A stretch of 26,499 bases of DNA, taken from positions 1-26,499 of IMG/VR virus record IMGVR_UViG_3300025873_000039; one strand, given 5' to 3'. Under the pieces are notes generated by a model. That model had not been told where the DNA came from. It did no database searches and saw only the letters and a program-made list of their open reading frames with translations. Shown here piece after piece: positions 6,763-21,705 of this stretch. Each line of letters begins with the position of its first letter. Positions within the stretch are counted from its first letter, which is position 1. The DNA comes from a virus. The translations under genes and the position numbers were made by a program.

Positions 6763-6926
6763 TATTCCAAAAAGAAACTTCTAGCTTCTATCTCCTGTTT
6801 AACTTCTTCTTGAAAAGAAGTATTAAGTTTATTAATGACAGCGTCCAAGTCTCTGATTAAAGCTTGTAAATTTGTTTGGGTGTATTCCTTACTCGCTCTT
6901 GTTAAGGCCTGAGTAATTTTTGCCAT
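6762..6926 (-). CDS. Small helical protein (54 aa)
   Basis: A 54-codon frame fills the gap between two larger genes exactly. ATG at 6926 overlaps the upstream TAA and its own TAA at 6762 overlaps the next ATG. The protein begins MAKITQALTRASKEYTQTN and has heptad-like hydrophobic spacing through LQALIRDLDAVINKLN, so one long helix or a small coiled coil is expected. No strong ribosome-binding site is seen, so translation probably depends on coupling. I have seen similar short proteins in marine phage virion operons. Function unknown. Confidence 0.72.
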   Translation of the reverse strand: MAKITQALTRASKEYTQTNLQALIRDLDAVINKLNTSFQEEVKQEIEARSFFLE

Positions 6927-8146
6927 TAAACAATACTCGCTATTCCTTGATCACTTTCTCCCTCTGCCATCATGGCTTCTGCTTTAAATTGTTCAAATGA
7001 CATTGGTTCTAGGTTTAATTCTTCCATTTCAAAAAGGTATTTTTGATATTGTTCTACTAACATAGGATCGTCACCTGCAGCCATTTCACTATGAGGCACT
7101 CCTTGATCTTGCATAAATTCAAACATGTTTTCATCTTCGAATTCGTCCCCTTGATATCCACCTGGATTAACGACTCTTCCTCTGTTGTATCCTACTCTTC
7201 CGCCTTTCGCCCAGTAAGCTCCTGAACCAAATCCTGGTCCAGCGACTTGTTTTCCGGCCGCTTGTCTAGAGGCTGTTGCTCCATGCCAACTATCGCTTGT
7301 ATTTCTTCTGCCTTTTGGATCCATGTCTGGATTAAATGTTCCGCCTCCTCCTGTTGTGACAGGACCAGAACCGTCTCCTCCCTGATTAATGGGTCCCACA
7401 GGTATACCGTCTCCTCCTGGTTTAGTGATATCCTTACCGGTTAATCTTCCTCTGTTTTCTAAAATATTTCTTAATCTTGTACTTATTGCTTTTCCTTTAG
7501 CTATTCTGTCCTCTGCCCATGCTAATGTTTTTTCATCCATTTCTTCCAGGCTCTTACTTCCAAACATAGAATCAAAATTTTTACCATAAGGATTAACTTC
7601 TGAAAAAACTTTTTTAAGTCCACTTGAAGGATCATCGGCAAAACGATATTCGTTTCCTTTATATGTGCCATATCCTTTATCATTCATAGACCCCATGATT
7701 TGATCATAAGCTCTTTGTTTGGCTTCGGGTCTTTGAAATTTATTACCTACCCATTCCAGACCACCTTTCACTGCTCCAAATATGGAAGGGAAATTAAAAC
7801 CTTTCTTTTGTGCTTGATACATCATTGCATTATTTCCTTGTCCAGGAACTTGACCATACTCACCAACTTGACCAGAAACATCCAGCATATTTGGTTGCTG
7901 AAAAGGTTGAGGATAGGTAGGCAAGGTATTAATATTAATATTTTCTCTCCAGTTACTAGGGGGATCTCGATGGATGTTGTAGTTAAGATTGCTAGTATTT
8001 GTTGGAAAGCCTAGAGGTGGATGAACTCCTCCTTGATCTTGATAATCTAAATTTGAAAATGATTCATTTTGTAATTGGTTGTTATAAATTGGATCTGGGT
8101 AAAGTGCATTTTGCACTACTCCTGTTCCACCTTTAATTCTTGCCAT
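6926..8146 (-). CDS. Putative virion protein, Gly/Asn/Pro-rich with GGRVGY motif (406 aa)
   Basis: The N-terminal 120 residues are rich in Asn, Pro and Gln and look unstructured. A more ordered, charged region spans about 120-240, and a Gly-rich linker (DGSGPVTTGGGGTFNPD) follows. A segment near residue 310 reads AKGGRVGYNRGRVV, the motif shared with the 473-residue protein downstream. The acidic C-terminus contains MSFEQFKAEAMMAEGES, comparable in pattern to MSYQQFKMQVLQQA in that same protein. The two are therefore probably distant relatives or share a capsid-localisation module. The start is TAATG with GGGAG just upstream. Internal virion protein is the likeliest role. Confidence 0.74.
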   Translation of the reverse strand: MARIKGGTGVVQNALYPDPIYNNQLQNESFSNLDYQDQGGVHPPLGFPTNTSNLNYNIHRDPPSNWRENININTLPTYPQPFQQPNMLDVSGQVGEYGQVPGQGNNAMMYQAQKKGFNFPSIFGAVKGGLEWVGNKFQRPEAKQRAYDQIMGSMNDKGYGTYKGNEYRFADDPSSGLKKVFSEVNPYGKNFDSMFGSKSLEEMDEKTLAWAEDRIAKGKAISTRLRNILENRGRLTGKDITKPGGDGIPVGPINQGGDGSGPVTTGGGGTFNPDMDPKGRRNTSDSWHGATASRQAAGKQVAGPGFGSGAYWAKGGRVGYNRGRVVNPGGYQGDEFEDENMFEFMQDQGVPHSEMAAGDDPMLVEQYQKYLFEMEELNLEPMSFEQFKAEAMMAEGESDQGIASIV

Positions 8147-10326
8147 TATCTTCTCCCGTCTGGTTGAATGTCCAGTCTAAATGTTCCCAGCTTCCAGTCT
8201 TGAGCAGCTGCGGTGTTTTGTACTTTTAATGCAATAGCTCGCGCTCTTGCACGTGTATCCACTTTATCAGTGGAACTTGTGATTGTAAAGGGTCCTAATG
8301 GAGAGCTCGCGGCAGTATTGTTAGGATAGTTTCTCAACATTAAAGTGACTTGCGTGTCTCCTGTTTGAGTTATAAAATCCGGTAAGAATCTTCTGATCTT
8401 CATTAGATATTCTCCATCACCTCGCAGGTCTGGGGACCCTAAAAATTGTCCTTGTGCTGACCTTTTCTGAGTAATATCAAAGTCTCCTGAAGTAATCTCA
8501 CCAAGCACAGAAGTTACTGCACCTCCTGCATTAATTTGATCGGTCCCTGTTTCGTGTTCATAGTAGGTAGTAACTCCATCCGTGTTACCTACAACATCAA
8601 AAGAAACATCGTCGGTATTGTCATAGTAACAAGCATGGGGTTTGTCGTAGATAGAAGAATCTGACCATGCAGTTCGTGGTAAGCTTCCAGTATACCATAC
8701 AGGTTGTTTCGCTAGCAGGGTCTCCATATAATTATAAGTAACAACTCGATCCACTACATTGGAGCCATTAGTACAATAATACCAACTAATTTCTCCGAAT
8801 AGATTATTGAGTCCTGCATTAATTAAATTTCTAGAAGTGGTATTAATATCATCATAAACATAGTCTTCTACTAAGCATGGTATTGTTTGAAGTTGACCAG
8901 CATAACTAAAGAATCCATTCTCAGACATCCAGTATGCAATTCCGTCTACTTCAACACAGGCGTTTTTACCAATGAGTCCACAGTTCGTTCCTACCTGTTC
9001 AAAAGAAAAGGTAAAAGGCTGACCTACAAATCTCATGAGGTAGACAGCATTATCGGTCCAGACATAGAGAGCATCTCGACCTCGAATAGCTCCCATAATT
9101 TTAGAGCCATTAGCAATTCTTTGAGTACCTGCGGTATTAATTGCTGAAGGAGTATAGTCGCTTGTACTTTCTTGATCCGACCATCTTATAAACATATCAT
9201 CTTGAGTTCCCACACTTCCAATTGTAGTTTCGGTTCCAAAGAAGATTAAATGTCTATCAACTGAAGAAACTAACATATGTCTTGAAGCTGTTGGTGCTCC
9301 TGCAACAACGGTTGCTCGATTCGCTGTTGGATTGGCAGCACTTGAATCCCATGAAAAACATTTACTATTATAAATAAGAGCAATAAGAGTAGTTCCATAA
9401 TTATCTAGAACCCATAGACCGGGTTCTAAAGTAACGTCCTCTGTAGAAGAATCACCCCAGCCAACATAGCTAGTGATATTAGTAATGGTTGCACCCGCTG
9501 TGTGTAGGGCTAAAGTTGTTCCATCCTGAGCACGCGCTCCTCCGCTTAAAGTTCCTGTGGCTATATCGTTAGCCGTAAAAGTAATATCCTCAGTCCCTAT
9601 TCTAATGGTTCCTGAAGTTGGAAAGGCTGCTGAACTCGTTAAGACTACAGTGGTGACTGCAGCATCAGATGCAATTGTTGTTACGAGAGTTGTGGTTGCT
9701 GGACCGGAAGCCGTTCCTGAATATTGACCAGTACCATAACCGAATCCTCCAATTTCCTGAGCAGGTCCAACTGTATAATAAGTTTGAGCTCGTGCACTTC
9801 CCACATTAGCTGTGGTTCCAGTTGCAGCAGCATCCATAGTAATTACAATACTTGTTGCTGTAGGAATGGACGTAGCCATAAATTTTTTATCTTCAAAATC
9901 TGCATCGGTGTACCCTGAGCCCGGAGGCGCGGTAACTGTATCTAATAAAACAATATCATCTTCTGACATACCGTGCACAGAAGGAAAAGTTATTGTAACT
10001 GTTCTTTCTGTATCCGTTGTAGAAAAATCACAACCTGTAATCGTCTTATTGATGGGGTGAATGTCATGGTACTGACCTCCTGAATAGACATATAAAATTC
10101 TGTTTGTTCCTATAGCAGCATATTTAATACCTGCATTATCATCAAAATGGTGAAGCGCTCTTCCGGCTCCAGTTAAATTGTCACCACCTAATTGATCCCA
10201 TCCTCCTATTTTTTCAGGGGTTCCATATCTAAAACGCACATAGTCTCCCCCTGTCCATTGCGCTTCTGCGCCAGTAGCAGTTACTTGTTTATTGAATCCG
10301 GGTCTAAAATTTACTTTTTGTAGCAT
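8146..10326 (-). CDS. Tail nozzle/hub-like virion protein (726 aa)
   Basis: The N-terminus MLQKVNFRPGFNKQ and the following WTGGDYVRFRYGTPEKIGGW are hallmarks of a large podovirus structural protein placed after the adaptor genes, with a role like P22 gp10 or T7 gp12. Repeated segments with VWTDNAVYLMRF- and ILYVYSGG-like beta strands fit a beta-propeller core. Two extra modules interrupt the N-terminal half: an HG-type beta module at about residues 107-175 and an RG/H-type beta module at about 211-283. The second is shared with the 320- and 268-residue proteins near 23-24.7 kb. The gene lies directly after the enzyme cargo, with a candidate promoter upstream (10354-10382) and a short AAGG ribosome-binding site. 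Structural role is confident; the exact tail position is inferred. Confidence 0.8.
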   Translation of the reverse strand: MLQKVNFRPGFNKQVTATGAEAQWTGGDYVRFRYGTPEKIGGWDQLGGDNLTGAGRALHHFDDNAGIKYAAIGTNRILYVYSGGQYHDIHPINKTITGCDFSTTDTERTVTITFPSVHGMSEDDIVLLDTVTAPPGSGYTDADFEDKKFMATSIPTATSIVITMDAAATGTTANVGSARAQTYYTVGPAQEIGGFGYGTGQYSGTASGPATTTLVTTIASDAAVTTVVLTSSAAFPTSGTIRIGTEDITFTANDIATGTLSGGARAQDGTTLALHTAGATITNITSYVGWGDSSTEDVTLEPGLWVLDNYGTTLIALIYNSKCFSWDSSAANPTANRATVVAGAPTASRHMLVSSVDRHLIFFGTETTIGSVGTQDDMFIRWSDQESTSDYTPSAINTAGTQRIANGSKIMGAIRGRDALYVWTDNAVYLMRFVGQPFTFSFEQVGTNCGLIGKNACVEVDGIAYWMSENGFFSYAGQLQTIPCLVEDYVYDDINTTSRNLINAGLNNLFGEISWYYCTNGSNVVDRVVTYNYMETLLAKQPVWYTGSLPRTAWSDSSIYDKPHACYYDNTDDVSFDVVGNTDGVTTYYEHETGTDQINAGGAVTSVLGEITSGDFDITQKRSAQGQFLGSPDLRGDGEYLMKIRRFLPDFITQTGDTQVTLMLRNYPNNTAASSPLGPFTITSSTDKVDTRARARAIALKVQNTAAAQDWKLGTFRLDIQPDGRR

Positions 10327-10353: not shown

Positions 10354-10382
10354 ATTATATCTAAGAATTTAGGTGTTTGAAA
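10354..10382 (-). promoter_or_regulatory. Candidate sigma70-type promoter before the nozzle gene
   Basis: On the minus strand a perfect TATAAT (10354-10359) follows TTTCAA (10377-10382) with a 17-base spacer. The -10 box is ideal but the -35 matches only three of six positions. It overlaps the end of the UPF0489-like gene and would start a roughly 20-base leader for the nozzle gene. It could let internal virion genes be expressed independently of the cargo. In such AT-rich DNA, chance matches are common. Confidence 0.3.
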
Positions 10383-10912
10383 GGGTTTTTTTTCTGAGCT
10401 ATTACTGTGTTGGAGTTCATACCTTTAGACGTTGTTTTCAGTATTTCTAAATAAAGACTGACATTTTTTTCATATTCAGCACTTTCACATATAACTAATT
10501 TATCAATATCTGTAAGATCAACTTCATCAATCCTATTTCTAATTTGAAGAATTTCTAATTTCCTCATCCAGTCGGTAATCTCGTCCGGTACAACCATCGA
10601 GTTATAATTTTTTACCCATATATAACCTTTAAGCTTTTTGTGTATGGCAGCCGCTAAAACCCAATTGCCTTCTCTGGGGCGATTATCTAAAGCTCCTTTC
10701 ACAGACGCTTGTTGATCATAGCCAAAATCATGGTGATGATCTATGTTAATTACAGTTGCCCCTTCTTCTATATGTTCATAAATTTCATGGTGTGTGTTGA
10801 TAAAAACAGTGGGTGTTTGTTTTTTAAAAAAATCCATGCATATAGATAAGATGTCCATGAACTGTGTTGGGTGTTGAATCCAATCTAAATCAATTGTTAA
10901 TAATTTTTTCAT
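10361..10912 (-). CDS. UPF0489-like putative metal-dependent protein (183 aa)
   Basis: The early part carries the signature I associate with UPF0489: THHEIYEHI at residues 40-48, then VINIDHHHDFGY at 54-65. The likely metal ligands are H41, H42, D58, H59-H61 and D62. The chain continues with NWVLAAAIHKKL and IWVKN, matching the family pattern of a buried Trp helix followed by a WV strand. The family has an arginase/deacetylase-like metal-site flavour but no firmly established reaction, so no substrate is given. D8 and D10 near the N-terminus may also bind metal. The gene is the last of the enzyme block. It is separated from the carbamoyltransferase by 37 bases that hold a candidate promoter, and no ribosome-binding site is visible. 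Family call is moderate; function is unknown. Confidence 0.62.
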   Translation of the reverse strand: MKKLLTIDLDWIQHPTQFMDILSICMDFFKKQTPTVFINTHHEIYEHIEEGATVINIDHHHDFGYDQQASVKGALDNRPREGNWVLAAAIHKKLKGYIWVKNYNSMVVPDEITDWMRKLEILQIRNRIDEVDLTDIDKLVICESAEYEKNVSLYLEILKTTSKGMNSNTVIAQKKNPFKHLNS

Positions 10913-10924
10913 TAAGTATCAGAC

Positions 10925-10952
10925 TTTATACCATATGGAAAATGTATGTCTA
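10925..10952 (-). promoter_or_regulatory. Candidate promoter before the UPF0489-like gene
   Basis: On the minus strand TAGACA (10947-10952, five of six consensus) and TATAAA (10925-10930, five of six) are separated by 16 bases. The -35 overlaps the stop codon of the carbamoyltransferase gene. Transcription would begin near 10918, only about six bases before the ATG at 10912, giving a nearly leaderless mRNA. That agrees with the absence of a Shine-Dalgarno sequence there. Confidence 0.4.
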
Positions 10953-12470
10953 GTTAACCACATTTTTAGTTATCAAAATATTATGCTCCGGTAGGAAACA
11001 ATATTTTAAATTAGATTTTAATAGTATGTTTTTTAAATCTTCATAGCTTTCCACCACAGGCATTCCAGGTAAATTTAATGACGTATTTAATAACACGGGT
11101 ATTCCATACATCTTATTAAAAGTTTTAATAAGATTGTAATAGTGAGTATTATGTTCAGCTTTTACACACTGAACTCTAGAATAACCATCAACTGATAGAA
11201 CGCTTTTGAGTTTATCTTCTTGGTTTTGTTTAACCTTGTAAACAAAATTCATATAATAAGGAGTTGTATTATAATTAGCAAAAAAATATTCTTCAAAATT
11301 CTCATTTAAAATAGAACATGTGAACGGCCTGTACCATTCTCTTTTCTTTATGTCATTTACTTTTTTAACGGCGTCCCTATGAGCAGGATTCATTAACAAT
11401 GACCGATTGCCTAGAGCTCTTGGACCTTGTTCTGATCTTCCTTGATAAATCGCAACAGGTTCATTAAGCAATATCTTACTGACATCTTTATAATTAGCTT
11501 TTACTAAGGAAAAATTTTTAAAAAATATATCCCTGTTGAACGTATGTTTAAACCCTAAGTATACCGTGTTTAGTTTTTCAATCTTTCCTTTAAGCGTACT
11601 ATAAGCTTTGCCTAAAGATATCCCTTGGTCAGTGCAAAAAGGATTCACAAATATTTTTTTATGTTTTGATAGTCTGGTATTTATTAATATGTTTTGAGCA
11701 ACGCCCCCAGTTAATGTCAGGTTGTCTGAATCTATTCCACTAACTATTTCTTCTGCTTTTAATTCACATGCTGTTTGAAAAGTTTTTACAAAATCTTGGG
11801 AATAAGTATCTTCTTTAAGTGTGCTTAATTTTAAATCTTTAAAAGAATCTCTTATGAAATTTTTATTATATATATGATTAAATATTTCTTGATTAAATTT
11901 TCCATAGCTACTGAGGGCCATAGTCTTACCATCGTTAAACTCATTTCTTCCATTCAAACCTAAACCATCTGTTGTGCTTTTATAACACCTTCCTATACAC
12001 ACATTCCCTTCTAAATCATTAAACCATTCTTTGTGTATGACTTTAAGATTATCATCATATACTGAAGTTTGTTCCGCATAAAATTTATCTTTTTTAAGAA
12101 TTAAATCTCCACGTAGGTCCCATACTAAATGATATGATTTATTAAATGGTGATATGAGTTGATTAGAGTAGGCGTGATAATTGTGATGTGAATGTACGTC
12201 TACATAAACTTGAGCTTCGTATCCTACAATAATATCTGATTGCAAGCATTCTGCCCATTGAGGTGCACAATGATTATTTTTTAAACCAGTTATATGAACC
12301 TCTTTAAATTCTAGGTTTAGACTATTAATAAATTCTATAAGTGTTCGTGAAGGAAAAGAAGTATGTTTAAATCTGTTAAATCTATCTATTTGTGTATGAA
12401 CAATAACTTTGTTTTCTTGAACAATAGTAATAGTTCCATCATGACTTGCATGTATAAATAAATAGTTCAT
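10950..12470 (-). CDS. O-carbamoyltransferase, NodU/CmcH/TobZ family (506 aa)
   Basis: Family members transfer a carbamoyl group from carbamoyl phosphate, through carbamoyl-adenylate, to a hydroxyl on a substrate. Both domains are recognisable. The Kae1-like N-terminal domain has the metal-binding HHNYH at residues 95-99, GKTMALSSYG at 181-190, GGVAQN at 255-260, and NPFCTDQGISLGKA around D281. The YrdC-like C-terminal domain has EQGPRALGNRSLL at 347-359, then KKVN at 369-372 and KKREWYRPF at 375-383, plus LLNTSLNLPGMPVVES further on. The length is slightly under the usual 550-600 residues. It starts one base after the preceding oxygenase stop. In this operon the acceptor hydroxyl could be made by one of the seven oxygenases, which is an inference. 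Carbamoylation of 5-hydroxymethylcytosine by a phage enzyme has been reported, so DNA is an alternative substrate. Confidence 0.88.
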   Translation of the reverse strand: MNYLFIHASHDGTITIVQENKVIVHTQIDRFNRFKHTSFPSRTLIEFINSLNLEFKEVHITGLKNNHCAPQWAECLQSDIIVGYEAQVYVDVHSHHNYHAYSNQLISPFNKSYHLVWDLRGDLILKKDKFYAEQTSVYDDNLKVIHKEWFNDLEGNVCIGRCYKSTTDGLGLNGRNEFNDGKTMALSSYGKFNQEIFNHIYNKNFIRDSFKDLKLSTLKEDTYSQDFVKTFQTACELKAEEIVSGIDSDNLTLTGGVAQNILINTRLSKHKKIFVNPFCTDQGISLGKAYSTLKGKIEKLNTVYLGFKHTFNRDIFFKNFSLVKANYKDVSKILLNEPVAIYQGRSEQGPRALGNRSLLMNPAHRDAVKKVNDIKKREWYRPFTCSILNENFEEYFFANYNTTPYYMNFVYKVKQNQEDKLKSVLSVDGYSRVQCVKAEHNTHYYNLIKTFNKMYGIPVLLNTSLNLPGMPVVESYEDLKNILLKSNLKYCFLPEHNILITKNVVN

Positions 12471-12471
12471 A

Positions 12472-12969
12472 TTAAAAATAGTTAAAATTTAAAACTACTC
12501 TATAGGCTGCATTACATGTGTTTGTCGTACCAGTATGTCTTAGATTTGATGGAAAAGTAACAAATGTATTCTCTACACTTTTAACTCTTTCTCCATTTTC
12601 AAAGATTGTTTCTCCATTGTTTGTATTTAAATAAAAAATACCAGTAGTACAAATAACTGAAACGTCTGTATGCATTTTATGAATTATTTTTTTATCTGTT
12701 CTTATTAAAAGATTAGCTTTAATTCTATTTAATCCCTTAAAATTTATTTTTTCTAATAGAGGTTTTATTAATTCAATATGATCTGACCTAGGTCTAAAAC
12801 CATCATGAAAATAATGAGTAAGTTGAGAGTTTTGATAATGGGTTTGATCATACTCATTATCCCATGTTACTTCAGCTAAATGCCAGGGGAAAAAACTACT
12901 CAGCATTTCTTTTTTTAATTTTTCTATTTCTTCTTTTTTTAAAAAATCTTTATGAATATTAATTGCCAT
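12472..12969 (-). CDS. 2OG-Fe(II) oxygenase, prolyl-hydroxylase-like (165 aa)
   Basis: From ATG at 12969 the protein has the non-haem iron facial triad H100-x-D102 (HKMHTDV) and distal H145 in FPSNLRHTGTT. R157 in YRVVLNFNYF is the likely 2-oxoglutarate-binding residue. The double-stranded beta-helix core, with GIFYLN and GETIFENG strands, is typical of small cyanophage-type prolyl-4-hydroxylase-like oxygenases. A TTG nine bases further upstream would also be open but has no ribosome-binding site, so ATG is preferred; the overlap with the preceding gene is then 11 bases. It aligns by eye with the gene at 13546-14115 (FPSxLRHxG), and these two are probably paralogues. Substrate unknown. Confidence 0.83.
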   Translation of the reverse strand: MAINIHKDFLKKEEIEKLKKEMLSSFFPWHLAEVTWDNEYDQTHYQNSQLTHYFHDGFRPRSDHIELIKPLLEKINFKGLNRIKANLLIRTDKKIIHKMHTDVSVICTTGIFYLNTNNGETIFENGERVKSVENTFVTFPSNLRHTGTTNTCNAAYRVVLNFNYF

Positions 12970-13549
12970 TTTTATCAAAGTTATATGAGAATATAATTCT
13001 CTTGTTTTTAGTTTCTTTACTATCCATCATGTGTTCTACATAACTTCTAAAAATTAAAAGCCTACCTTCCAGAGGGGGATATGTGCAACTAGGAAAAGTT
13101 AATTCATTAAATTCTATTTTATTAGTTAAAATTTCAGGTTTTAAATCTAAAGGGTTAGCAGTATCGTTATGATAAGGTGATCTAAACTGTGTGCCTTTAT
13201 CATTTGCATCAGATTGAAAATAATAAACCGTAGCTACAGCGCAACCAATATGTGTATGCCAAGGTTGTCCTGCACCTTGTGTATAATCAATAACCCAACT
13301 GGCATTAGCTTTGTGTTGGTGAGGGTAATTGTGTGCTTTACAATATTTATTTACTTGTTGAGTTATCCAATCATTAAATTTTTTAAAATTTCTATCTTTA
13401 TGAATAGCAGTGTAAGAAAGTCCTCTAGGATCGTAATCAAATTTATCTAGATGTTTTTTATATTCTTCTTTTATATCTTTATGAAAAGGACAATCTACAA
13501 CACCTATTGCCGTAGGAAACCAAGTCTGTATTTGTAGATCTACACTCAT
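12959..13549 (-). CDS. 2OG-Fe(II) oxygenase-like protein with HxH motif (196 aa)
   Basis: The core reads QPWHTHIGCAVATVYYF, so the first metal motif is H98-x-H100 instead of HxD. The distal histidine is H173 in YVEHMMDS and the probable 2OG-binding arginine is R184, before IIFSYNF. HxH followed by a GVYY-like strand is characteristic of the putative 2OG-Fe(II) oxygenase family PF13759, widespread in T4-like marine phages; here the strand reads ATVYYF. Because the carboxylate ligand is replaced by histidine, the metal chemistry may differ from that of canonical members (oxygenase versus halogenase-like or inactive), which cannot be settled here. Start and stop overlap both neighbours (ATGA on the upstream side). 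Confidence 0.78.
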   Translation of the reverse strand: MSVDLQIQTWFPTAIGVVDCPFHKDIKEEYKKHLDKFDYDPRGLSYTAIHKDRNFKKFNDWITQQVNKYCKAHNYPHQHKANASWVIDYTQGAGQPWHTHIGCAVATVYYFQSDANDKGTQFRSPYHNDTANPLDLKPEILTNKIEFNELTFPSCTYPPLEGRLLIFRSYVEHMMDSKETKNKRIIFSYNFDKNGN

Positions 13550-14115
13550 TGGTTCTCGATCCTTACTACAAGATTAAGACTAACTCTCCATTTATTTTTC
13601 ACTGGAGCTAGACCGTGATGCCTTAAATGACTGGGGAATACTATTGCTTGTCCTTCTTTTCCTAAAATTTTTTGGTCCCCTTCAAACTCAGTTCCTCCAT
13701 CACTGGTGTGAAGATTATAAACTATAGATGCATAGTATCCTGCATAGCCATTTAAATCCGCATCTGTATGCCACTTGCAAGAAGCACCAGGACTACACAG
13801 ATTCCAGTACACCCTTTCTAAATGTTGAATTTTTAAGCCTGTTCTTTCTTTGCAGAAAAAATAAATCCAGTTGCCAAAATTATTTAAGTAGTGATCTGGA
13901 ATTATACTGGGGATAGAATTATTGTGTGAATAAGTAATCTGGTACATTCCTGCGTCTGTTCTTTTGTCCGCTAGAACCTCACTGAATTGGCCACCGATCT
14001 CAGCAGTTGGCTCCACTACAAAACTCCATTTAGCTTTATTTCCTAAATAATTTATTACTTCTGTATTAATTTCTTTCGGAACAGGAAGATCAAAAGTCTC
14101 TATTTTATTATTCAT
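13546..14115 (-). CDS. 2OG-Fe(II) oxygenase, prolyl-hydroxylase-like (189 aa)
   Basis: The metal triad is H116-x-D118 (CKWHTDAD) with the distal histidine in FPSHLRHHGLAP (H166 or H167) and R177 in KWRVSLNLVV as the 2OG anchor. The segment VYNLHTSDGGTEFEG supplies the usual double-stranded beta-helix strands. It immediately follows the halogenase gene with an 8-base overlap. It resembles the oxygenase at 12472-12969 in the FPSxLRH region and is the most typical prolyl-4-hydroxylase-like member of the block. Hydroxylation of a protein side chain or a small molecule is the expected chemistry; the substrate is unknown. Confidence 0.85.
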   Translation of the reverse strand: MNNKIETFDLPVPKEINTEVINYLGNKAKWSFVVEPTAEIGGQFSEVLADKRTDAGMYQITYSHNNSIPSIIPDHYLNNFGNWIYFFCKERTGLKIQHLERVYWNLCSPGASCKWHTDADLNGYAGYYASIVYNLHTSDGGTEFEGDQKILGKEGQAIVFPSHLRHHGLAPVKNKWRVSLNLVVRIENQ

Positions 14116-15655
14116 GAATTTTTTTTAAAACATCTAAAAGTTTTGGTTTTGTTTTTGCAGTTTGTAACCAGCCCTGTCTCTGTAAATCTCTTCCTTTAAT
14201 AGATGCTAATAAATGCTTTTCAGTGAAGTCATTTAAATCGCTAATATTATTTTTATCTTTTATGTGAGTTGGATCAATAGGTAATTGTCTTAAACCAGTT
14301 CCTATGCAATGTATGCCGTGCTCACTATTATACTCGTTATAAATTTTTAATTTTAACTGGTTATCAATATCTGCGTCAGGTAGAAGTTTTAAATTTTTTA
14401 TAGATTTATTTGTTAAGTCTCTCCAGTATTTTGTATCATCTCTCTGAGATAAATAATAATGCAAAGCAACGAACTCAGCAAAGATATCAAATTCAGCTTT
14501 GCATTTATAATTAAAGCCGTCTTTATCAAATTGGTTTAATTCTTCACTATGTAATATTCTGGCCAGGTAAATTAAAAATTTATGTACAGTAAATAATCCA
14601 TTACTTTCTAATGGTTCAATAAAGCCTGCAGACAGACCTATTGCTATAACATTCTTATAAAAAATCTCTTCATGTAAACCTACTTTCATATTAATTTTTC
14701 TATATTCTAAGTTTTGGTCTTCAATATCATAGCCTAAGGTAGACCATAGATGCTGTTTCATTTCATGATATGCGTTATGCTCGTTTGTATATTTAGAACT
14801 GTAAACGTAACCTGTGCCTATTCTTTTCCAACTCGGTATGTTCCAAGCCCAGCCATTACCTAAAGCTGTACAATGTGTATAGGCAACTAATCGTTTTTCT
14901 TTATCTGTGTATGGTACTTGAAAAACTAGGGCCGTATCATTTGGTAATAATTCGTTATAACTATTAAATTTAACTTTCAATATTTTTTCTAGTAGAATAG
15001 ATTGAAACCCTGTGCAATCGATATATAGATCTGCAGCATACTTATTATTTAAAGAAACAATGTTTCCTCTTACGTCTCTTAAAGCATCTTTAATATCATC
15101 TTGAATATATTTAACACCTTCTGGAATACATATTTTTTCTTTTAAAACTTGTCCAAATTTAATTGCATCAAAATGGTACGCGCTTTGCTTCTTAAGATCA
15201 AAATTGCCGAGCTCTCCATTTACATTTTCTCCAAAAGTGTTGTGTTCTACTAATGCTAAACTTGGATATAAGAAGCGTGCATAATCACTATAAGGAACTA
15301 AAGGGTCTCTAAATTTTTTAAAGTACCAAGTATTTTTACCTGCTGCTAAAGTACTTTCATCAGGTCTACCAAAAGGATAGTGAAACCCAGCACTGTTTTT
15401 TTTATAAAAATCTGTAAACTTAATACTTAGTTTATAAGTAGCGTCAGATTCTTTCATAAAATCTTCATCTTTAATTCCTACCAAATCTAGCCAGTCATTG
15501 AATGCTGCTAGCGTGCTTTCTCCCACACCGACAACGGGAACATTTTTACTTTCAATAAGTGTTATTTTTTTATTTGGGAATAGTCTTATTAAGGTTGTTG
15601 CTGTCATCCATCCAGCACTTCCGCCCCCAACAATTATTATTTTATCTGTTCTCAT
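14108..15655 (-). CDS. Flavin-dependent halogenase, tryptophan-halogenase family (515 aa)
   Basis: Such enzymes use FADH2, O2 and halide to make HOX, which is passed to an active-site lysine and placed on an electron-rich substrate. All diagnostic elements are visible. The FAD dinucleotide fold is GGGSAGW at residues 10-16. Catalytic K79 lies in SIKF, matching K79 of PrnA. The halogenase signature W269-x-W271-x-I273-P274 (GWAWNIP) is present. E347 in GFIEPLES corresponds to PrnA E346. Its length is close to the 510-540 residues of known enzymes. It overlaps the upstream oxygenase by ATGA and the downstream one by 8 bases. No flavin reductase is encoded nearby, so the host must supply FADH2. 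VirX1 of cyanophage Syn10 is a characterised viral halogenase. Substrate and halide preference cannot be read from the sequence. Confidence 0.92.
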   Translation of the reverse strand: MRTDKIIIVGGGSAGWMTATTLIRLFPNKKITLIESKNVPVVGVGESTLAAFNDWLDLVGIKDEDFMKESDATYKLSIKFTDFYKKNSAGFHYPFGRPDESTLAAGKNTWYFKKFRDPLVPYSDYARFLYPSLALVEHNTFGENVNGELGNFDLKKQSAYHFDAIKFGQVLKEKICIPEGVKYIQDDIKDALRDVRGNIVSLNNKYAADLYIDCTGFQSILLEKILKVKFNSYNELLPNDTALVFQVPYTDKEKRLVAYTHCTALGNGWAWNIPSWKRIGTGYVYSSKYTNEHNAYHEMKQHLWSTLGYDIEDQNLEYRKINMKVGLHEEIFYKNVIAIGLSAGFIEPLESNGLFTVHKFLIYLARILHSEELNQFDKDGFNYKCKAEFDIFAEFVALHYYLSQRDDTKYWRDLTNKSIKNLKLLPDADIDNQLKLKIYNEYNSEHGIHCIGTGLRQLPIDPTHIKDKNNISDLNDFTEKHLLASIKGRDLQRQGWLQTAKTKPKLLDVLKKIHE

Positions 15656-16233
15656 GTCTTTTTAACATCGGTTCCTAACGCTATTCGGTTATCAAATAAA
15701 TTTGAATTTTTACTACTAGCATCATTGTAATGTAGAAATACTTGAAAGCATCTTGTTCCAGTAAAAGGTTCTCTCCAATGCTCTACTTTACAACCTTTAT
15801 ATATAACTAAATCCCCTTGAGATAAGTTTAGTTTTTTACCAGCCATAAAAATTGGCCATTCATCTCCTCCTAAATTTAAAGACATGCTAAATTCACATTC
15901 GTGTCTGTCTGTGTGTTTTTCAAGTTCATCTCCCTTGTGGTATATTCTCATGAAACTATAAGTAGGAACTAATTTTTTATTGGTTTCCTTTTCAATTACC
16001 TTTTGAAGTTTTAATAATAAAGTATCAAATGCTCCGTCTCCATACATACAAAAAGTTGTAGGGTTTGGTATTTGAATATCTCCAAAAAATCCAAATCGAT
16101 TATCATAAGGAGAGATTGCATTATGGTGTAGGAGTTCAGTTAAAGCAGTGGCTTTAATCATTGCATACTCACAGAGAAAATTACAGATATCAGTGGGTAC
16201 TGTTTTTTTAACTACTAAACAATCTTCTTTCAT
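15652..16233 (-). CDS. 2OG-Fe(II) oxygenase (193 aa)
   Basis: The iron-binding motif is H107-x-D109 (LEKHTDRHECEFS). The distal histidine is H152 in KVEHWREPF, and R161 in GTRCFQVFLHY is the likely 2OG anchor. Strands SMSLNLGGDEWPIF and LSQGDLVIYKG build the beta-helix. The N-terminal half (FLCEYAMIKA, RFGFFGD) resembles phage proline/lysine-hydroxylase-like proteins. It lies directly before the halogenase and is ATGA-coupled to both neighbours. Two cysteines near the N-terminus (C5, C17) are not at metal-ligand positions. A canonical active site is seen; the substrate is unknown. Confidence 0.83.
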   Translation of the reverse strand: MKEDCLVVKKTVPTDICNFLCEYAMIKATALTELLHHNAISPYDNRFGFFGDIQIPNPTTFCMYGDGAFDTLLLKLQKVIEKETNKKLVPTYSFMRIYHKGDELEKHTDRHECEFSMSLNLGGDEWPIFMAGKKLNLSQGDLVIYKGCKVEHWREPFTGTRCFQVFLHYNDASSKNSNLFDNRIALGTDVKKT

Positions 16234-16739
16234 TTATGTAACCCCCATGAAACAATAATTCTTTCTTGACAAGACATTGAAAAATGCGTTGTACCGGTTG
16301 GCGACAATAACATATCTCCTGGTTTTAATTCTATAGTTAAATCTAAATCTTCAAATCTATACATCGTTGATTTGTATAAGCTCAATATTAAAGAATTTTC
16401 TTTATCTTCATGGTCTACTCCTAAACTTTTTTTAAAAGAACAAAACATATCTAGACGATCAATTTTGAAATCTGGCAAATTATCTACTATATGTTTATGC
16501 ATATCTACAAACAAAGGATTAGTCTCTACTCGATAAATTTGAAAAATATGAGAAAACACATCGTTATGATTAATACCAACGTTGGTATCATATTTAATTT
16601 TATTAACGGGATACTGTCTTTGCAAAACTTGATTGCAAACTATATTAAAATCTATCGGTTGAGGAAGAGTCATAGCGCTAGGATAATGCATAACTTTTTT
16701 ATGGTCTACCGCTTCTCTTATTTTTTGAAATAACTGCAT
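16230..16739 (-). CDS. Cupin-type putative Fe(II)/2OG oxygenase (169 aa)
   Basis: This is the most divergent oxygenase in the block. A probable metal motif H110-x-D112 occurs in GVDHEDKENSLILSLY. The beta strand LKPGDMLLSPTGTTHFS supplies H152, and R160 in ERIIVSWGLHK is a candidate 2OG anchor. GDMLLSPxGTTH is the classic shape of the second cupin motif. The spacing fits a small single-domain cupin related to 2OG oxygenases, but other cupin enzymes (isomerases, binding proteins) cannot be excluded. The start is a TAATG overlap with the preceding gene, and the stop is ATGA-coupled to the next. Confidence 0.68.
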   Translation of the reverse strand: MQLFQKIREAVDHKKVMHYPSAMTLPQPIDFNIVCNQVLQRQYPVNKIKYDTNVGINHNDVFSHIFQIYRVETNPLFVDMHKHIVDNLPDFKIDRLDMFCSFKKSLGVDHEDKENSLILSLYKSTMYRFEDLDLTIELKPGDMLLSPTGTTHFSMSCQERIIVSWGLHK

Positions 16740-17344
16740 TATTTAAACGGCTTTCCTGTTGCCCATGTAACTAAACTATATCTTGTTCCTTTCGTAATGG
16801 GAATTACTCTGTGCCATAAAAAGGAAGGAAACACTATACATGCGCCTTGTTTACTAAATCTATATTCGTGAATATTTGGGTCTCTAATATCTCTAAAATC
16901 AAATTGTAAAGTTCCTCCTGTAAATTCGTTAGGATCATTTAATAAAAGCACCATTGATAGTTTACGATATGTTCCTTTAAAAGGTCCTTCTTTATAAGAT
17001 TCGTTACCCATATCAATATGCCAATCATAAAAATTAGTATTTTTATAAATAGTAAATTGACAGGTTTCATAAAAATCAATATCAAAATTCCAACCACAAG
17101 ACTTATTTGCATCGTTAAAATATGGAATGATTGCATCATAAACCCATTTGTCATTTAACCAGGAGACATCACTATTTCTTATACTTTCTTTTTGTTCTTT
17201 TAATTTTTCTTCTGTTAAATCATTTTTAACATCTTCAATAAGAGCATCTTTTACTTCTTGTTTCTTGCCATATTGTATAACATCATTACAAAAGTGTTTT
17301 GGCAATCCTTTAAAGCTATACCAGTATCTATTTTTCAGATTCAT
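16739..17344 (-). CDS. 2OG-Fe(II) oxygenase, PKHD/prolyl-hydroxylase-like (201 aa)
   Basis: A complete catalytic set is visible: H109-x-D111 in YDWHIDMG, H178 in FPSFLWHRVIPI, and R188 in GTRYSLVTWATG exactly ten residues later, as in PKHD-type hydroxylases. FTGGTLQFDF is the standard strand between them. The N-terminal 90 residues contain a charged helical region (EEKLKEQKES). The gene overlaps the upstream oxygenase by 17 bases, with its ATG inside the last codons of that gene, and shares TAATG with the downstream cupin. A hydroxylase acting on a protein or free amino acid is likely by family; the substrate is unknown. Confidence 0.86.
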   Translation of the reverse strand: MNLKNRYWYSFKGLPKHFCNDVIQYGKKQEVKDALIEDVKNDLTEEKLKEQKESIRNSDVSWLNDKWVYDAIIPYFNDANKSCGWNFDIDFYETCQFTIYKNTNFYDWHIDMGNESYKEGPFKGTYRKLSMVLLLNDPNEFTGGTLQFDFRDIRDPNIHEYRFSKQGACIVFPSFLWHRVIPITKGTRYSLVTWATGKPFK

Positions 17345-17993
17345 TATAAATTCTTCTACTAGTATCGTAATGAAAAAAGTGTGTTATGGTATACTTCCCT
17401 AAACCTTTGTCTCTTTTTTCTTCAGGGAGATTAACTGTTTCAGAACCATGTAAATAAAAACATGGAAAAGCCATCAATCTATTGTGCTTACACTCTACCC
17501 TATAGTTATGAAATTCTGGAAAAATAAGATCACCGCCAGTAAAAGCTTTGGGTTCTCTATAGAACCAAATTAAAATTGTCCAAAAAAATGAATCATGATG
17601 TGGTTTATAATAATCAGCATTGTCATAATAAGAAACTAAAGTATAAGAAATATTTGTTTCAGTAAAAGTTCTACTGTAAGCAGGAGCACATTTTTTAATT
17701 GCACTTCTAAAGTCATCAGTTTGTGCTTTGCTAAGGAAAGTTAGTATGTCTGATATTTTAAGGTCTCTTGCTTCAGGTGTGTAAAATTTATCTAAATGAA
17801 TTCTAAAATGTTCTCCTAGATGTTCACCCTTTTCATTTGTAGCTATTTCTTTCCATTCTCCTCTTTCAAATTTATCTTTCTCGCTATAGAAATCTAATTC
17901 TTTCCAAATTCTTTTTTCTTCGGATGGTGAATACCAATTATCGATGAGTACGTGTGAGGGCTTTAATGGTGTTTGTGCTTTTATAAGTTTCAT
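17328..17993 (-). CDS. 2OG-Fe(II) oxygenase, first gene of the cargo operon (221 aa)
   Basis: The metal-binding residues are H132-x-D134 in YKPHHDSF and H182 in FYLHGSETV. A basic residue downstream (R194 or K200, the latter in GKYTITHFF) probably binds 2-oxoglutarate. The strand FTGGDLIFPEF and the closing FPCFYLHG are typical of prolyl-4-hydroxylase-like oxygenases. The N-terminus VLIDNWYSPSEEKRIW looks like the usual start of such phage enzymes. It follows a 47-base gap after the glycine-rich tail gene containing a candidate promoter and palindrome, and GGAAAG provides a weak ribosome-binding site. It overlaps the next oxygenase by 17 bases. Confidence 0.85.
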   Translation of the reverse strand: MKLIKAQTPLKPSHVLIDNWYSPSEEKRIWKELDFYSEKDKFERGEWKEIATNEKGEHLGEHFRIHLDKFYTPEARDLKISDILTFLSKAQTDDFRSAIKKCAPAYSRTFTETNISYTLVSYYDNADYYKPHHDSFFWTILIWFYREPKAFTGGDLIFPEFHNYRVECKHNRLMAFPCFYLHGSETVNLPEEKRDKGLGKYTITHFFHYDTSRRIYNESEK

Positions 17994-18040: not shown

Positions 18041-18895
18041 TTATGATGATGACCAATTTCCTGCGACAACTAAGTCGTAGACTTCTTGAAGTCTCCATAC
18101 TCCTGGAGCACCCCCAAAAAATGCAGCTTCTTTAACAGCGCAGTATCCAGCTTGTCCTCCCGGACTTGATGGACCAGCACCTGTGCCATGAGAACCTCCG
18201 CCTCCGCCTTGGTTACTTCCTCCGGATTGCCCGGTATTTCCGCCGCCTTGTCCACCGGCACCGCCACGAGCTCCGCCTGCGCCACCACCAAAATAATAAT
18301 TTGTTGGTGAAGCCGTAGGAGTATTAACTGTGTGTGGAATTCCTTGACCGCCTTGTGTTCTTGAGATGGCATTTTGACCAGCTCCTCCGCCGCCTCCAGC
18401 GGGATCGCCACCTGAGCCACCGTTGTTACCGTATCCTGTGAATTGTCCAGAGGGAGATTGTTGTCCTGAACCTGGGGATCCTGGGCCACCTGCGTGTCCA
18501 GCTCCGCCACCAGAGCCACCGGCTCCTCCAGCAGAGTTTCCTCCATGTCCTGCTCCATATCCGCCACCTTGTGCGGTTTGACCATCAAAAGCAGATGTAC
18601 CTCCTGCGCTTCCTGAAGAATTTCCGCCCATTCCACCACCACTGCCAATACTGACAGGGACACCAGAACCTGGAAGTGTATAAGCTGACGAATATAATAC
18701 TCCGCCTGCGCCTCCACCGCCTCCACGATTAGAACCGCCTCCTCCTCCAGCGCCAACTACAACTACTTCTGCTACTGTTGCACCGGCTGGGGTAAAAGTT
18801 GCTCCTCCTGTGTATGTGGTAACTACTTCAGCGTTTTGTGTAGGATCATTATCTGGTCCTATGATTCCGCCGTTATTATAATATTGTCTAGCCAT
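18041..18895 (-). CDS. Glycine-rich tail-tip / fibre protein (284 aa)
   Basis: After a short N-terminus (MARQYYNNGG) there is a beta segment ending VAEVVVVGAGGGGG, the standard entry to phage glycine-rich fibre domains. About 180 residues of nearly pure Gly/Ser/Ala/Asn follow, probably packed polyglycine-II helices as in known receptor-binding tips. The C-terminus, GVWRLQEVYDLVVAGNW, is a closing motif I recognise from other marine phage tail fibres. ATG at 18895 is chosen because it forms a TAATG junction with GGGAG eight bases upstream; an alternative ATG at 18910 lies inside the preceding gene. Host recognition or adhesion is likely. It directly precedes the enzyme cargo, so it is one candidate substrate. 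Confidence 0.8.
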   Translation of the reverse strand: MARQYYNNGGIIGPDNDPTQNAEVVTTYTGGATFTPAGATVAEVVVVGAGGGGGSNRGGGGGAGGVLYSSAYTLPGSGVPVSIGSGGGMGGNSSGSAGGTSAFDGQTAQGGGYGAGHGGNSAGGAGGSGGGAGHAGGPGSPGSGQQSPSGQFTGYGNNGGSGGDPAGGGGGAGQNAISRTQGGQGIPHTVNTPTASPTNYYFGGGAGGARGGAGGQGGGNTGQSGGSNQGGGGGSHGTGAGPSSPGGQAGYCAVKEAAFFGGAPGVWRLQEVYDLVVAGNWSSS

Positions 18896-19338
18896 TATTG
18901 TGTCTCCCAAGTACTTGTATCAGGATTCCAAATATAATCAACCTGTGGATCTTCGGTTGCTGTATAGTCAGGAGCTCCTGAGTTCGGATATCCGAACCAT
19001 CTTAAATTTTCTTCGTCCCACGAATAGTTGTAAGTGTTTATATAATCTTTAGGTTCTGCAACAGGTGGGTCCCAGTCTCTAGTCGCCTCGTTAAAAGTAA
19101 AACTAGGGAAAGGTTGAGCTTTTTTAAAATAATTTTCAGAGATTAAATAAGTATCGCCTATATATGCTTGACCTCTATTTAAGAAAGTTCCATCTTCAGA
19201 ATATTCTTTAGCTTCAGAAGTATCTACACCAATGTGATTGGCCATAGCTTCTTCAGTATTGATACCATCGTCAGATCCGACTTGGGTATTAATAACTATC
19301 TTACTCTCATCAAGTATTGCGAAGTGTTTATGTGCCAT
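18895..19338 (-). CDS. Small tail appendage protein with Trp-rich C-terminus (147 aa)
   Basis: The start MAHKHFAILDESKIVINTQV, the middle FLNRGQAYIGDTYL, and the C-terminal FNEATRDWDPPV, YSWDEENLRWFGY and YIWNPDTSTWETQ match a widespread marine phage protein. It has repeating W-D-E-tipped beta hairpins and is usually placed next to tail fibre genes. It probably decorates or caps the fibre. GGGGG lies upstream of the ATG. The stop overlaps the next start as TAATG. Structural role by context; no enzymatic motif. Confidence 0.74.
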   Translation of the reverse strand: MAHKHFAILDESKIVINTQVGSDDGINTEEAMANHIGVDTSEAKEYSEDGTFLNRGQAYIGDTYLISENYFKKAQPFPSFTFNEATRDWDPPVAEPKDYINTYNYSWDEENLRWFGYPNSGAPDYTATEDPQVDYIWNPDTSTWETQ

Positions 19339-20481: not shown

Positions 20482-21705
20482 CTATGCTGAATGTTCTATA
20501 TCTGTATAAGAAGTATTTCCAGTTATGTCAACATCTTTATAATGTAGTGGAGATACTCCCCCAGAACCTAAACTTACTGTAGCTGAGACACCTGTTAGTC
20601 CTACTGCATCATCAGGAGAAAGGGCACCTGTTGAAGCTGTAGCTGAAACTCCAGTTAAAATATAAGTAAACTCAAGAACAGGAGTACCAAGGGATGTTGT
20701 AGCTGAAACGCCTGTAGGATTTATTATTTGAGTTTCAACAATTTCTACGGCGCCAACATAAGCAGTAGCTGATTGACCTGTTAATCCAACTGTCATGTCG
20801 TCTAGAGCAATGGCTCCTGCAGAAACTGTAGATGAAACTCCAGTTAAAGGAACGCCTATTTCTATAACAAAAGACCCGACACTTGCTGTAGCTGAGACTC
20901 CAGTTATAGTGTAGGTCATTGTATGTGAAACAGAACCTACTGAAGCAGTAGCTGATTGACCTGTTGGTCCAACTACCATTTCTAGTGGAGATATTGCTCC
21001 AACACTAGCTGTCGCTGAAACACCTGTAGGAGTTAGTGTAAACGCTGATTCACCCCAGTTTTCAGATCCCCATGTATCTCTTCCCCATCCTTGTTCAGGA
21101 AAAGCAGCAACAGTACCTAAAGATGATGTTAATCCCAATCCGGTTAAAGTGATAACTGGATCTATACTGTCGCCCCAAGGCTCATTGCCCCAAGTATCTC
21201 TACCCCAACCAGCATTTGTTCCAACATATGTTGGAGATCCAACGGAAGAGGTTAAAGCTGATGGTGCGGTAATTGGTACGACAATTTGTGGGTCAGGTGT
21301 TCCGACAGAAGATGTTAAACCTGTCGGTGCTGTAAGTATTTGTAAAGTTTGTATTTCCGCAAGACCAACGGCAGATGTTAAACCTAATCCAGATAATGCA
21401 ACAGAATAGGTTACTCCCCATCCAGCATTACCATATTCAAGTCTGCCCCACCCATCGAGGGCTTGAGCATAAGGAAATGATCCAACAGAAGCTGTTGCTG
21501 ATTGACCTGTAGGAGTAATAGTTAAACCTGATTCACCCCAATTTTCTATGCCCCAAAAATCACTTCCCCATCCTGATTCAGGAAAAGCATCGGGTGTTCC
21601 TAATGATGTTGTTGCAGATAGACCTGTTAAAGAAACAGTAACGGTATCAGATTGCCAGGAATTATATCCCCAGGTTGTTCCGGCTTTATTCCACGTGTTA
21701 GCCAT
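20482..21705 (-). CDS. Repeat-built fibre/appendage protein with TGxSATxSxG and Trp-rich motifs (407 aa)
   Basis: About 14 copies of a degenerate TGVSATASVGS-like unit recur at roughly 20-40-residue spacing through most of the chain. Four longer Gly/Trp-rich inserts (for example GWGRDTWGSENWGES) are interleaved in the first half. Each unit is short and beta-prone, so an elongated stacked beta structure is expected. The C-terminus, ending YKDVDITGNTSYTDIEHSA, is not repetitive. The start codon lies in a 9-bp hairpin with its ribosome-binding site (21703-21723). A structural role is clear from composition and context; whether it is fibre, whisker or decoration is not. Confidence 0.78.
   Translation of the reverse strand: MANTWNKAGTTWGYNSWQSDTVTVSLTGLSATTSLGTPDAFPESGWGSDFWGIENWGESGLTITPTGQSATASVGSFPYAQALDGWGRLEYGNAGWGVTYSVALSGLGLTSAVGLAEIQTLQILTAPTGLTSSVGTPDPQIVVPITAPSALTSSVGSPTYVGTNAGWGRDTWGNEPWGDSIDPVITLTGLGLTSSLGTVAAFPEQGWGRDTWGSENWGESAFTLTPTGVSATASVGAISPLEMVVGPTGQSATASVGSVSHTMTYTITGVSATASVGSFVIEIGVPLTGVSSTVSAGAIALDDMTVGLTGQSATAYVGAVEIVETQIINPTGVSATTSLGTPVLEFTYILTGVSATASTGALSPDDAVGLTGVSATVSLGSGGVSPLHYKDVDITGNTSYTDIEHSA
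20560..21690 (-). repeat. Intragenic degenerate repeats encoding TGxSATxSxG units
   Basis: The DNA repeats that encode the 14 protein units share short cores such as GTAGCTGA and CCTGTTA in varying spacing. They are not identical, so they appear old or under selection for protein variation. They could still support recombination that changes repeat number. Confidence 0.65.

Follow-up and report, generated by a model that had tools for sequence, protein, structure and literature searches.

Halogenases, 2OG oxygenases and carbamoyltransferases are frequent in ocean phages, where they form a class of unexplained 'auxiliary metabolic' genes, most often attributed to the metabolism of the host or to the repair of DNA. 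The viral record IMGVR_UViG_3300025873_000039, analysed here over a stretch of 26,499 nucleotides (the window), raises the question what such enzymes act on when they are encoded next to a tail-tip gene. Ten minus-strand genes (A to J, positions 10361-17993, Table 1) comprise one intact flavin halogenase, one NodU/TobZ-type carbamoyltransferase, seven 2OG/cupin-type oxygenases and one UPF0489-like gene; each ORF of the block listed in a preliminary description was found again at its position, and the families as well as the coupling were confirmed. We propose, with a probability of roughly two in three, that this block serves as a modular kit for post-translational modification, which would decorate the phage's own Gly-rich tail-tip protein, the product of the adjacent gene K.

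Table 1 Genes of the enzyme block and its neighbours in the window
Gene	Product	Position	Strand	Supporting matches and remarks
g7	Virion structural/stabilization protein	8146..10326	-	phrog_3287 1e-99; downstream edge of cassette slot
A	UPF0489-like protein	10361..10912	-	PF12640 2e-4, under Pfam cut-off
B	NodU/CmcH/TobZ-type O-carbamoyltransferase	10950..12470	-	PF16861 6e-49, PF02543 5e-19, phrog_1601
C	2OG-like oxygenase	12472..12978	-	phrog_274 8e-43; HTD...H...R
D	2OG-Fe(II) oxygenase, HxH type	12959..13549	-	PF13759 9.6e-11, phrog_81
E	2OG-like oxygenase	13546..14115	-	phrog_274 1.6e-15; HTD...H...R
F	Flavin-dependent halogenase	14108..15655	-	PF04820 1.4e-95, phrog_2928; intact motifs
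G	2OG-like oxygenase, near-core member S0	15652..16233	-	phrog_2954 3e-42
H	2OG/cupin-like protein	16230..16739	-	weak phrog_4992; HxD...H...R
I	2OG-Fe(II) oxygenase, P4H-like, near-core S1	16739..17344	-	PF13640 3e-13, phrog_61 1e-35
J	2OG-Fe(II) oxygenase, subfamily S10	17328..17993	-	PF13640, phrog_61
K	Gly-rich tail-tip protein, proposed substrate	18041..18910	-	PF21722 Gly_rich_2 6.7e-14
L	147-aa protein, candidate fibre chaperone	18895..19338	-	phrog_7759; paired with K

Layout and motifs of the enzyme block

Successive genes of the block overlap, abut or lie at most 37 nt apart: gaps of 37 and 1 nt separate A/B and B/C, and the pairs C/D, D/E, E/F, F/G, G/H, H/I and I/J overlap by 20, 4, 8, 4, 4, 1 and 17 nt. 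Between J and K lie 47 nt. Two terminators were found inside the block against 4.3 expected, none of them prominent, and searches for RNA families and tRNAs across the window returned none. The coupling of the ten genes stands as first described, but not the start of the operon at J; since the unit also includes K and the neighbouring gene L, the operon begins upstream of the enzymes.

The halogenase F retains the FAD motif GxGxxG (G10-G15), W269xWxIP and the catalytic Lys75, which is invariant in 15 relatives; with these PF04820 motifs in place, it is classed as intact. In B, both PF02543 and PF16861 score above cut-off, phrog_1601 spans residues 1-497, and the Kae1-like N domain together with the C-terminal domain places the protein in the NodU/CmcH group, with TobZ and GdmN as relatives in the PDB; a scan of viral contigs with the single sequence of B as query recovered the related locus L002 alone. 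A fails the curated cut-off of UPF0489 (22.2 bits vs 27) and is rare among relatives, occurring in one other cassette (L355). Where dN/dS could be measured it indicates purifying selection (halogenase 0.13, carbamoyltransferase 0.29 and H 0.05, the last in comparison with L002).

The seven oxygenases have plausible active sites. HxD...H is carried by C, E, G, H, I and J, mostly with an Arg about 10 residues downstream, and D shows HxH...H...R; the metal triad with a basic residue is thus present overall and clear in C, E, H and I. The HxD/H ligands of G are invariant in 18 relatives, among which the downstream Arg varies, and in J an insertion precedes any downstream basic residue. Two PHROGs labels proved to be mislabels, namely 'DNA endonuclease V' for phrog_274 (C and E, with HTD...H...R) and 'ferrochelatase' for phrog_2954 (G, with HxD...H). 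The former label would fit 2OG enzymes acting on nucleic acids, in repair or base modification. So would the work on T4-like cyanophages in which halogenase, carbamoyltransferase and 2OG genes are listed as host-like, the part of that paper available to us proposing DNA repair and 2OG/nitrogen sensing as roles and making no link to tail tips (Sullivan 2010, PMC3037559). For the present genes we consider this highly unlikely: they occupy a tail-tip slot and not a place among replication genes, their companions are a halogenase and a carbamoyltransferase, joined in certain relatives by a sulfotransferase, and they covary with tip residues (see below).

Among the scanned ORFs of the window, a 26.5 kb fragment, there is no scaffold-building enzyme or carrier protein, as had been noted before, and no glycosyltransferase, sugar-nucleotide, HemK methylase or HAD phosphatase gene. 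Intact, coupled enzymes lacking scaffold or carrier genes should therefore act on a pre-existing molecule, which agrees with the earlier proposal. The preliminary description knew of no account of such a complete set, but in kind the set has a precedent, since the 'second cluster' of the jumbo cyanophage S-SSM6a, interpreted as a secondary-metabolite or capsule system, already places a halogenase together with carbamoyltransferases, 2OGFeDO enzymes and cupins within a single run of genes, directly after large genes annotated merely as hypothetical (Iyer et al. 2021, PMC7824862). The window shares with it the combination of halogenase, carbamoyltransferase and several 2OG genes. Unlike the window, S-SSM6a carries rfaE, a cytidylyltransferase, HemK methylase and HAD phosphatases, whereas the window has seven 2OG genes and a coupled Gly-rich tip gene. 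It is unlikely that the block makes or decorates a small molecule (a halogenated amino-acid or sugar-derived metabolite) or a capsule, as suggested for that similar cluster, which also holds sugar-nucleotide genes (PMC7824862), even though the gene types are common to antibiotic tailoring and the closest carbamoyltransferases of known structure have small-molecule substrates: the scanned ORFs contain no scaffold, activation or carrier gene, and the enzymes are swapped as a unit with K, and in different backbones they go with the Gly-rich tip gene and with the residue content of its product.

The tail-tip gene K and exchange among relatives

K (34% Gly, start codon TTG) matches Gly-rich phage proteins in the viral library, including syn9 Gp38 and the Gly-rich protein of S-TIM4, while profile searches of PDB sequences gave no useful match for K or L. 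The top fold match of the low-confidence K model (pLDDT 46) is the fibre of cyanophage Pam3 (7ypx_A, E=1.7e-3, prob 1.00) and that of L, at a non-significant score (E=1.3, prob 0.57), is the Pam3 fibre chaperone (7ypx_a); both matches are weak and fall on the two partners of one solved complex. Judged from the models, K seems to resemble the Pam3 fibre tip most in fold and L may be weakly similar to its chaperone. An L-type gene adjoins the Gly-rich gene in many relatives. Pam3 gp24 with its chaperone gp25 (PMC9608196) and the gp38 adhesins of S16/T2 (PMC12892980) are Gly-rich tail-tip receptor-binding proteins, as proposed for K, but the parts of both papers available to us mention no modifying enzymes adjoining the adhesin genes.

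The closest solved structure to F is VirX1, the flavin halogenase of cyanophage Syn10 (PDB 6QGM, 4.7e-100), F being ~42% identical to the Syn9/Syn10 halogenase; in Syn9, which is related to Syn10, the halogenases likewise come after three Gly-rich ORFs, Gly-rich proteins of Syn9 being encoded at 28855-32300. Work on VirX1 reportedly dealt with small molecules; to our knowledge, no natural substrate has been established for it. This neighbourhood recurs. Of the 17 halogenase loci that have 5 kb of sequence to either side, 15 contain a Gly-rich ORF no more than 5 kb from the halogenase; the same holds for 41 of 55 clusters that extend 4 kb to one side, and all 11 loci of the G family have such an ORF nearby. 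The background, taken over the genes of 15 whole phage genomes, is 11%. Podovirus and myovirus backbones share the arrangement (Syn9, S-RIM44, S-CREM1, P-TIM40, S-TIM4, Sf-CH11, as well as HTVC008M, Mosig, HTVC033P, HTVC023P and 023Pt_psg01), and CRP-902 contains neither the Gly-rich gene nor such enzymes. Exceptions are HTVC027P, with three such enzymes and no Gly-rich gene, and S-B64, L344 and L347, with a halogenase and no Gly-rich neighbour. In cyanophage genomes, a permutation test that set all 2OG genes against Gly-rich genes did not reach significance, since many of the former are located elsewhere; for the subsets of halogenase and of G genes the outcome was significant.

L, K and the enzymes are one unit of exchange between phages. 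Across L, K and the enzymes up to the carbamoyltransferase, L002 is 91-99% identical to the window at the amino acid level (95-99% for the cassette enzymes), whereas outside this unit identity drops to 30% for N, 45% for M and 33% for g7. By DNA megablast, the phage collection yielded no relative. That the ten genes form a single complete set, as first assumed, finds no support; in relatives the set is combinatorial. Nearly constant there are only the I-type (S1, 156 loci) and the G-type (S0, 179 loci), and halogenase presence, mapped by parsimony on the tree of g7, requires ~21 changes. Scattered and independently gained genes in relatives had been named as evidence against a joint system; this applies by half, in that gain and loss are frequent but happen nearly always in one slot, next to one kind of gene. 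As another reading, the cassette may be a hitchhiker in a recombination hotspot beside tail fibres with unrelated cargo, for example for manipulating host 2-oxoglutarate; the region of host recognition is known to be a hypervariable hotspot (PMC7029224) and modulation of 2OG levels is proposed for cyanophages (PMC3037559). We regard this as about as unlikely as a small-molecule product: one chemistry is strongly enriched among the cargo, L342, L343, L367 and L012 pair the Gly-rich gene with an adjoining halogenase and lack 2OG genes, and particular enzymes match particular residues in K and not in controls.

Residue composition of K in relation to the enzymes

In a large number of relatives, the enzymes of the cassette correspond to the amino acids that K contains, and this match is specific to K. 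His makes up 1.41% of K in 63 clusters with the halogenase and 0.51% in 53 clusters without it (P=1e-11), and in pairs of nearest K relatives (n=44) it rises with the halogenase in 37 and falls in 6. Phylogenetic regression on g7 (77 tips), a tree which controls only in part for the module's own history, retained the association (P=1.2e-8, BH 2.6e-6; 1.27% vs 0.43% His). A second link concerns a 2OG subfamily absent from the window, S3, and Cys (P=4.2e-13, BH 1.8e-10; 1.71% with vs 0.30% without S3; nearest-relative pairs 23:3). Regressions were run with Pagel lambda <=0.95, fits at lambda = 1 being numerically degenerate and disregarded. Both effects are independent of each other, of K length, of Gly content and of family number, and no matching His enrichment appeared in the main neighbouring structural proteins or in the enzymes I and G. 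In whole myovirus genomes, Gly-rich proteins close to a halogenase contain 2.8% His vs 1.0% (P=0.004); across a mixed set of non-podovirus contigs, His showed no significant effect (P=0.11).

Other candidate pairs fared less well. Tyr and Trp are the expected halogenase targets; they were dropped, because matched pairs gave weak or no signal. The link of I to Pro (P=2.4e-5 in the same regression on 77 tips) was lost in matched pairs (4 up, 3 down), that of I to Gly probably stems from mis-assigned ORFs, and presence of the carbamoyltransferase gave no signal in K residues. Caution is also needed since Gly-rich tips are widespread among phages and linked genes can share history, so that the covariation could be indirect.

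A change of host surface polysaccharide or lipopolysaccharide, blocking superinfection, does not predict residue covariation in K. Sugars are substrates of NodU-type carbamoyltransferases, and marine phage host-recognition clusters place glycosyltransferases beside tail fibres (PMC7029224); with the cassette located among late virion genes and no glycosyltransferase or sugar-nucleotide gene among the scanned ORFs, we hold this to be quite unlikely.

Proposed modification of the tail tip

From the candidates put forward at the outset, which included a virion protein, the evidence points to one, K. The genes and their intact motifs, the coupling, the constant slot next to K, the joint exchange and the K-specific covariation are observations; we infer K as the substrate, the residues modified and the purpose, receptor binding or tip stability. 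Decoration of K would happen inside the infected cell, ahead of tail assembly or in its course. The 2OG oxygenases would add hydroxyl groups to side chains or oxidise them in some other manner, the halogenase would halogenate aromatic residues, His foremost, in the Gly-rich lattice and loops, and the carbamoyltransferase would cap hydroxyl groups, possibly ones produced by the oxygenases. A marine Gly/His-rich protein, the Nereis jaw protein Nvjp-1, is probably halogenated according to PMC13120676 (citing Birkedal 2006); being an unrelated animal structural protein, it resembles K by analogy only. Phages would swap enzymes in and out of the slot along with matching tip variants, and the host-contact surface would gain chemistry beyond the 20 amino acids.

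Tentatively, several unrelated marine phage lineages may possess a dedicated, modular side-chain modification for the receptor-binding tip, with one residue type per enzyme (halogenase-His, 2OG subfamily-Cys, P4H-like-Pro) and with enzymes and tip evolving as matched sets, which would give adhesins chemistry outside the genetic code. K-type tips would then be the natural substrate that is missing for VirX1 and other halogenases of marine viruses, and this substrate would be directly testable on cultured phages. The data suggest that these marine phages chemically decorate the tip that touches the host cell. If such enzymes build modified receptor-binding tips, a large gene class would move from metabolism to host recognition, and host range would acquire a chemical layer invisible in sequence alone.

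Gene block and adjoining probable tip genes

The 26,499-base virus record is a fragment, whose minus-strand genes begin at a capsid-like end and continue through tail genes to the virion protein gene g7 (phrog_3287) and internal virion proteins; 023Pt_psg01 and two pelagiphages, HTVC027P and HTVC023P, are its closest cultured or circularised relatives by g7 (40-48% identity). The cassette consists of ten abutting or overlapping genes (A-J), and the preliminary description, which had read them as seven 2OG/cupin-type oxygenases, a halogenase (F), a carbamoyltransferase (B) and a UPF0489-like protein (A), was borne out for all ten by Pfam, PHROG and motif checks. The PHROG labels 'DNA endonuclease V' (phrog_274) and 'ferrochelatase' (phrog_2954) appear to be wrong for C, E and G, which are 2OG-type by motif; these mislabels propagate into public phage annotations. 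The closest solved structure to the halogenase is VirX1. The block is AT-rich (25-36% GC, versus 35-43% in most virion genes); GC amounts to 38% in the record and 53% in gene K directly upstream, the latter probably explained in part by Gly codons.

Features of the window and of related loci
Feature	Position	Remark
g4	4805-6226	internal virion protein; short repeat GGR(M/I/V)G(Y/L) common to g4 and g6, by eye
g6	6926-8146	internal virion protein; repeat as in g4
g7	8146-10326	virion protein
Cassette A-J	10361-17993	ten genes
C	12472-12978	phrog_274
E	13546-14115	phrog_274
G	15652-16233	phrog_2954
K	18041-18910	34% glycine; PF21722 match
L	18895-19338	neighbour of K
O	20482-21705	many tandem LTGVSATASVG-type units, fibre-like repeat, by eye
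Capsid-like end	26238-26498	
S3 enzyme	L245:2687-3316	example of 63 loci
S3 enzyme	L349:4266-4895	example of 63 loci
Sulfotransferase	L331:2162-2959	PF00685
S-B64 halogenase	61798-63369	locus L116

The low-confidence model of the K product has the fibre of cyanophage Pam3 as top PDB match (7ypx_A, E=1.7e-3, probability 1.00), and the good model of L first matches, not significantly, the chaperone of that fibre (7ypx_a), the Mu fibre chaperone also being among its matches. For Pam3, a Gly-rich domain has been proposed as the tip that recognises the host, with gp25 acting as its chaperone (PMC9608196). From these model matches and the Pam3 precedent, the most likely role of K is that of a receptor-binding tail tip, with L as the partner in its assembly.

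Exchange and recurrence of the cassette

Compared with the related contig L002, L, K, J, I, H, G, the halogenase, C and the carbamoyltransferase share 91-99% amino-acid identity, whereas the flanking N, M and g7 reach only 30%, 45% and 33%; the exchanged segment thus takes in the tip and its partner along with the enzymes. A, D and E are absent from L002 at this position. Between both, most enzymes have a dN/dS of 0.05-0.30, J one of 0.55 and K one of 0.65.

In relatives collected with g7 and with the enzymes as queries (gene calls being mechanical), the enzymes sit between Gly-rich/L genes and g7. Most cassettes have I-type (S1) and G-type (S0) enzymes; halogenase, carbamoyltransferase and the remaining 2OG genes are variable, and parsimony puts the number of halogenase changes at about 21. 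Of the 17 halogenase loci with sufficient flank to either side, 15 have a Gly-rich gene no more than 5 kb away, as do 11 of 11 loci for G; across 15 whole phage genomes the background is 11% of genes. Since many loci share ancestry, binomial P values make them look more independent than they are, and recurrence in different backbones, the same neighbourhood being found in T4-like cyanophages and pelagimyophages, is the stronger point. In L012, L342, L343 and L367 the halogenase adjoins a Gly-rich gene without 2OG genes.

Other arrangements were also observed. Two to four clustered halogenase genes stand opposite three tandem Gly-rich genes (1.6-3% His) in L336, L346, L363, L365 and L366. A sulfotransferase, possibly another tip-modifying chemistry, occupies the cassette slot in L331, with related ORFs in four more loci. 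The S-B64 halogenase adjoins recombination endonuclease genes and is 64 kb away from the single Gly-rich gene, which nonetheless contains 3.4% His.

Residue content of the tips

Were K the substrate of the enzymes, tips accompanying a given enzyme would be expected to contain its target residue. Every residue was tested against every enzyme subfamily in an exploratory analysis (420 tests, BH corrected), with the g7 tree as phylogenetic control because K aligns poorly. His content of K tracks the halogenase (P=1.2e-8, BH 2.6e-6) and Cys content tracks S3 (P=4.2e-13, BH 1.8e-10), a PF13759 2OG subfamily absent from the window; the median Gly-rich tip has 7 Cys with S3 and 0 without. The S3 motif is HxH rather than HxD, and three-His metal sites recall thiol dioxygenases.

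Among nearest K relatives paired with and without halogenase, His was up in 37 and down in 6 (complete cassettes only: His 25:4, and Cys 23:3 in the pairs with and without S3). Both effects are independent of each other, of the length and Gly content of K and of the number of families. The same directions were seen in contigs retrieved with g7 as sole query, hence not selected for halogenase (His P=0.018, with 4 carriers only; Cys P=8e-5), and in whole genomes of myoviruses the Gly-rich proteins close to a halogenase contain 2.8% His versus 1.0% (P=0.004); in a mixed set of other contigs the His effect was not significant (P=0.11). No corresponding enrichment of comparable strength was found in the controls (neighbouring structural proteins, enzymes I and G): nominally, His was lower with halogenase in O_407 (P=0.035) and Cys slightly higher with S3 in enzyme I (P=0.034), and small controls leaned slightly towards more His (Q_250, P=0.05, 9 clusters; P_146, P=0.06, 14 clusters). 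A link between I and Pro, significant in regression, was not so in nearest-K pairs and was rejected. The window K contains four His, three in Gly-rich contexts as read from the sequence; the 91% identical K of L002 has the same four.

A putative tail-tip modification kit

The same enzyme families are listed for cyanophages (Sullivan et al. 2010, PMC3037559), and for the ten-gene halogenase/carbamoyltransferase/2OG/cupin cluster of S-SSM6a a metabolite or capsule function was proposed (Iyer et al. 2021, PMC7824862). That cluster contains sugar-nucleotide genes, whereas the window has none, and it immediately follows large genes that carry a hypothetical annotation. No paper tying such enzymes to tail-tip modification was found among the open-access papers searched. 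A tail-tip modification kit is the most economical reading of the cassette: enzymes expressed late would act on side chains of K ahead of assembly, by oxidation, halogenation and possibly carbamoylation. We put the probability that K is the substrate at roughly 0.7; that the halogenase specifically targets His is more tentative, at slightly less than even odds. A Gly/His-rich protein of the marine Nereis jaws, which is reported to be probably halogenated, offers a chemical precedent (PMC13120676). Such modification may benefit receptor binding, loop rigidity or protease resistance of the tip.
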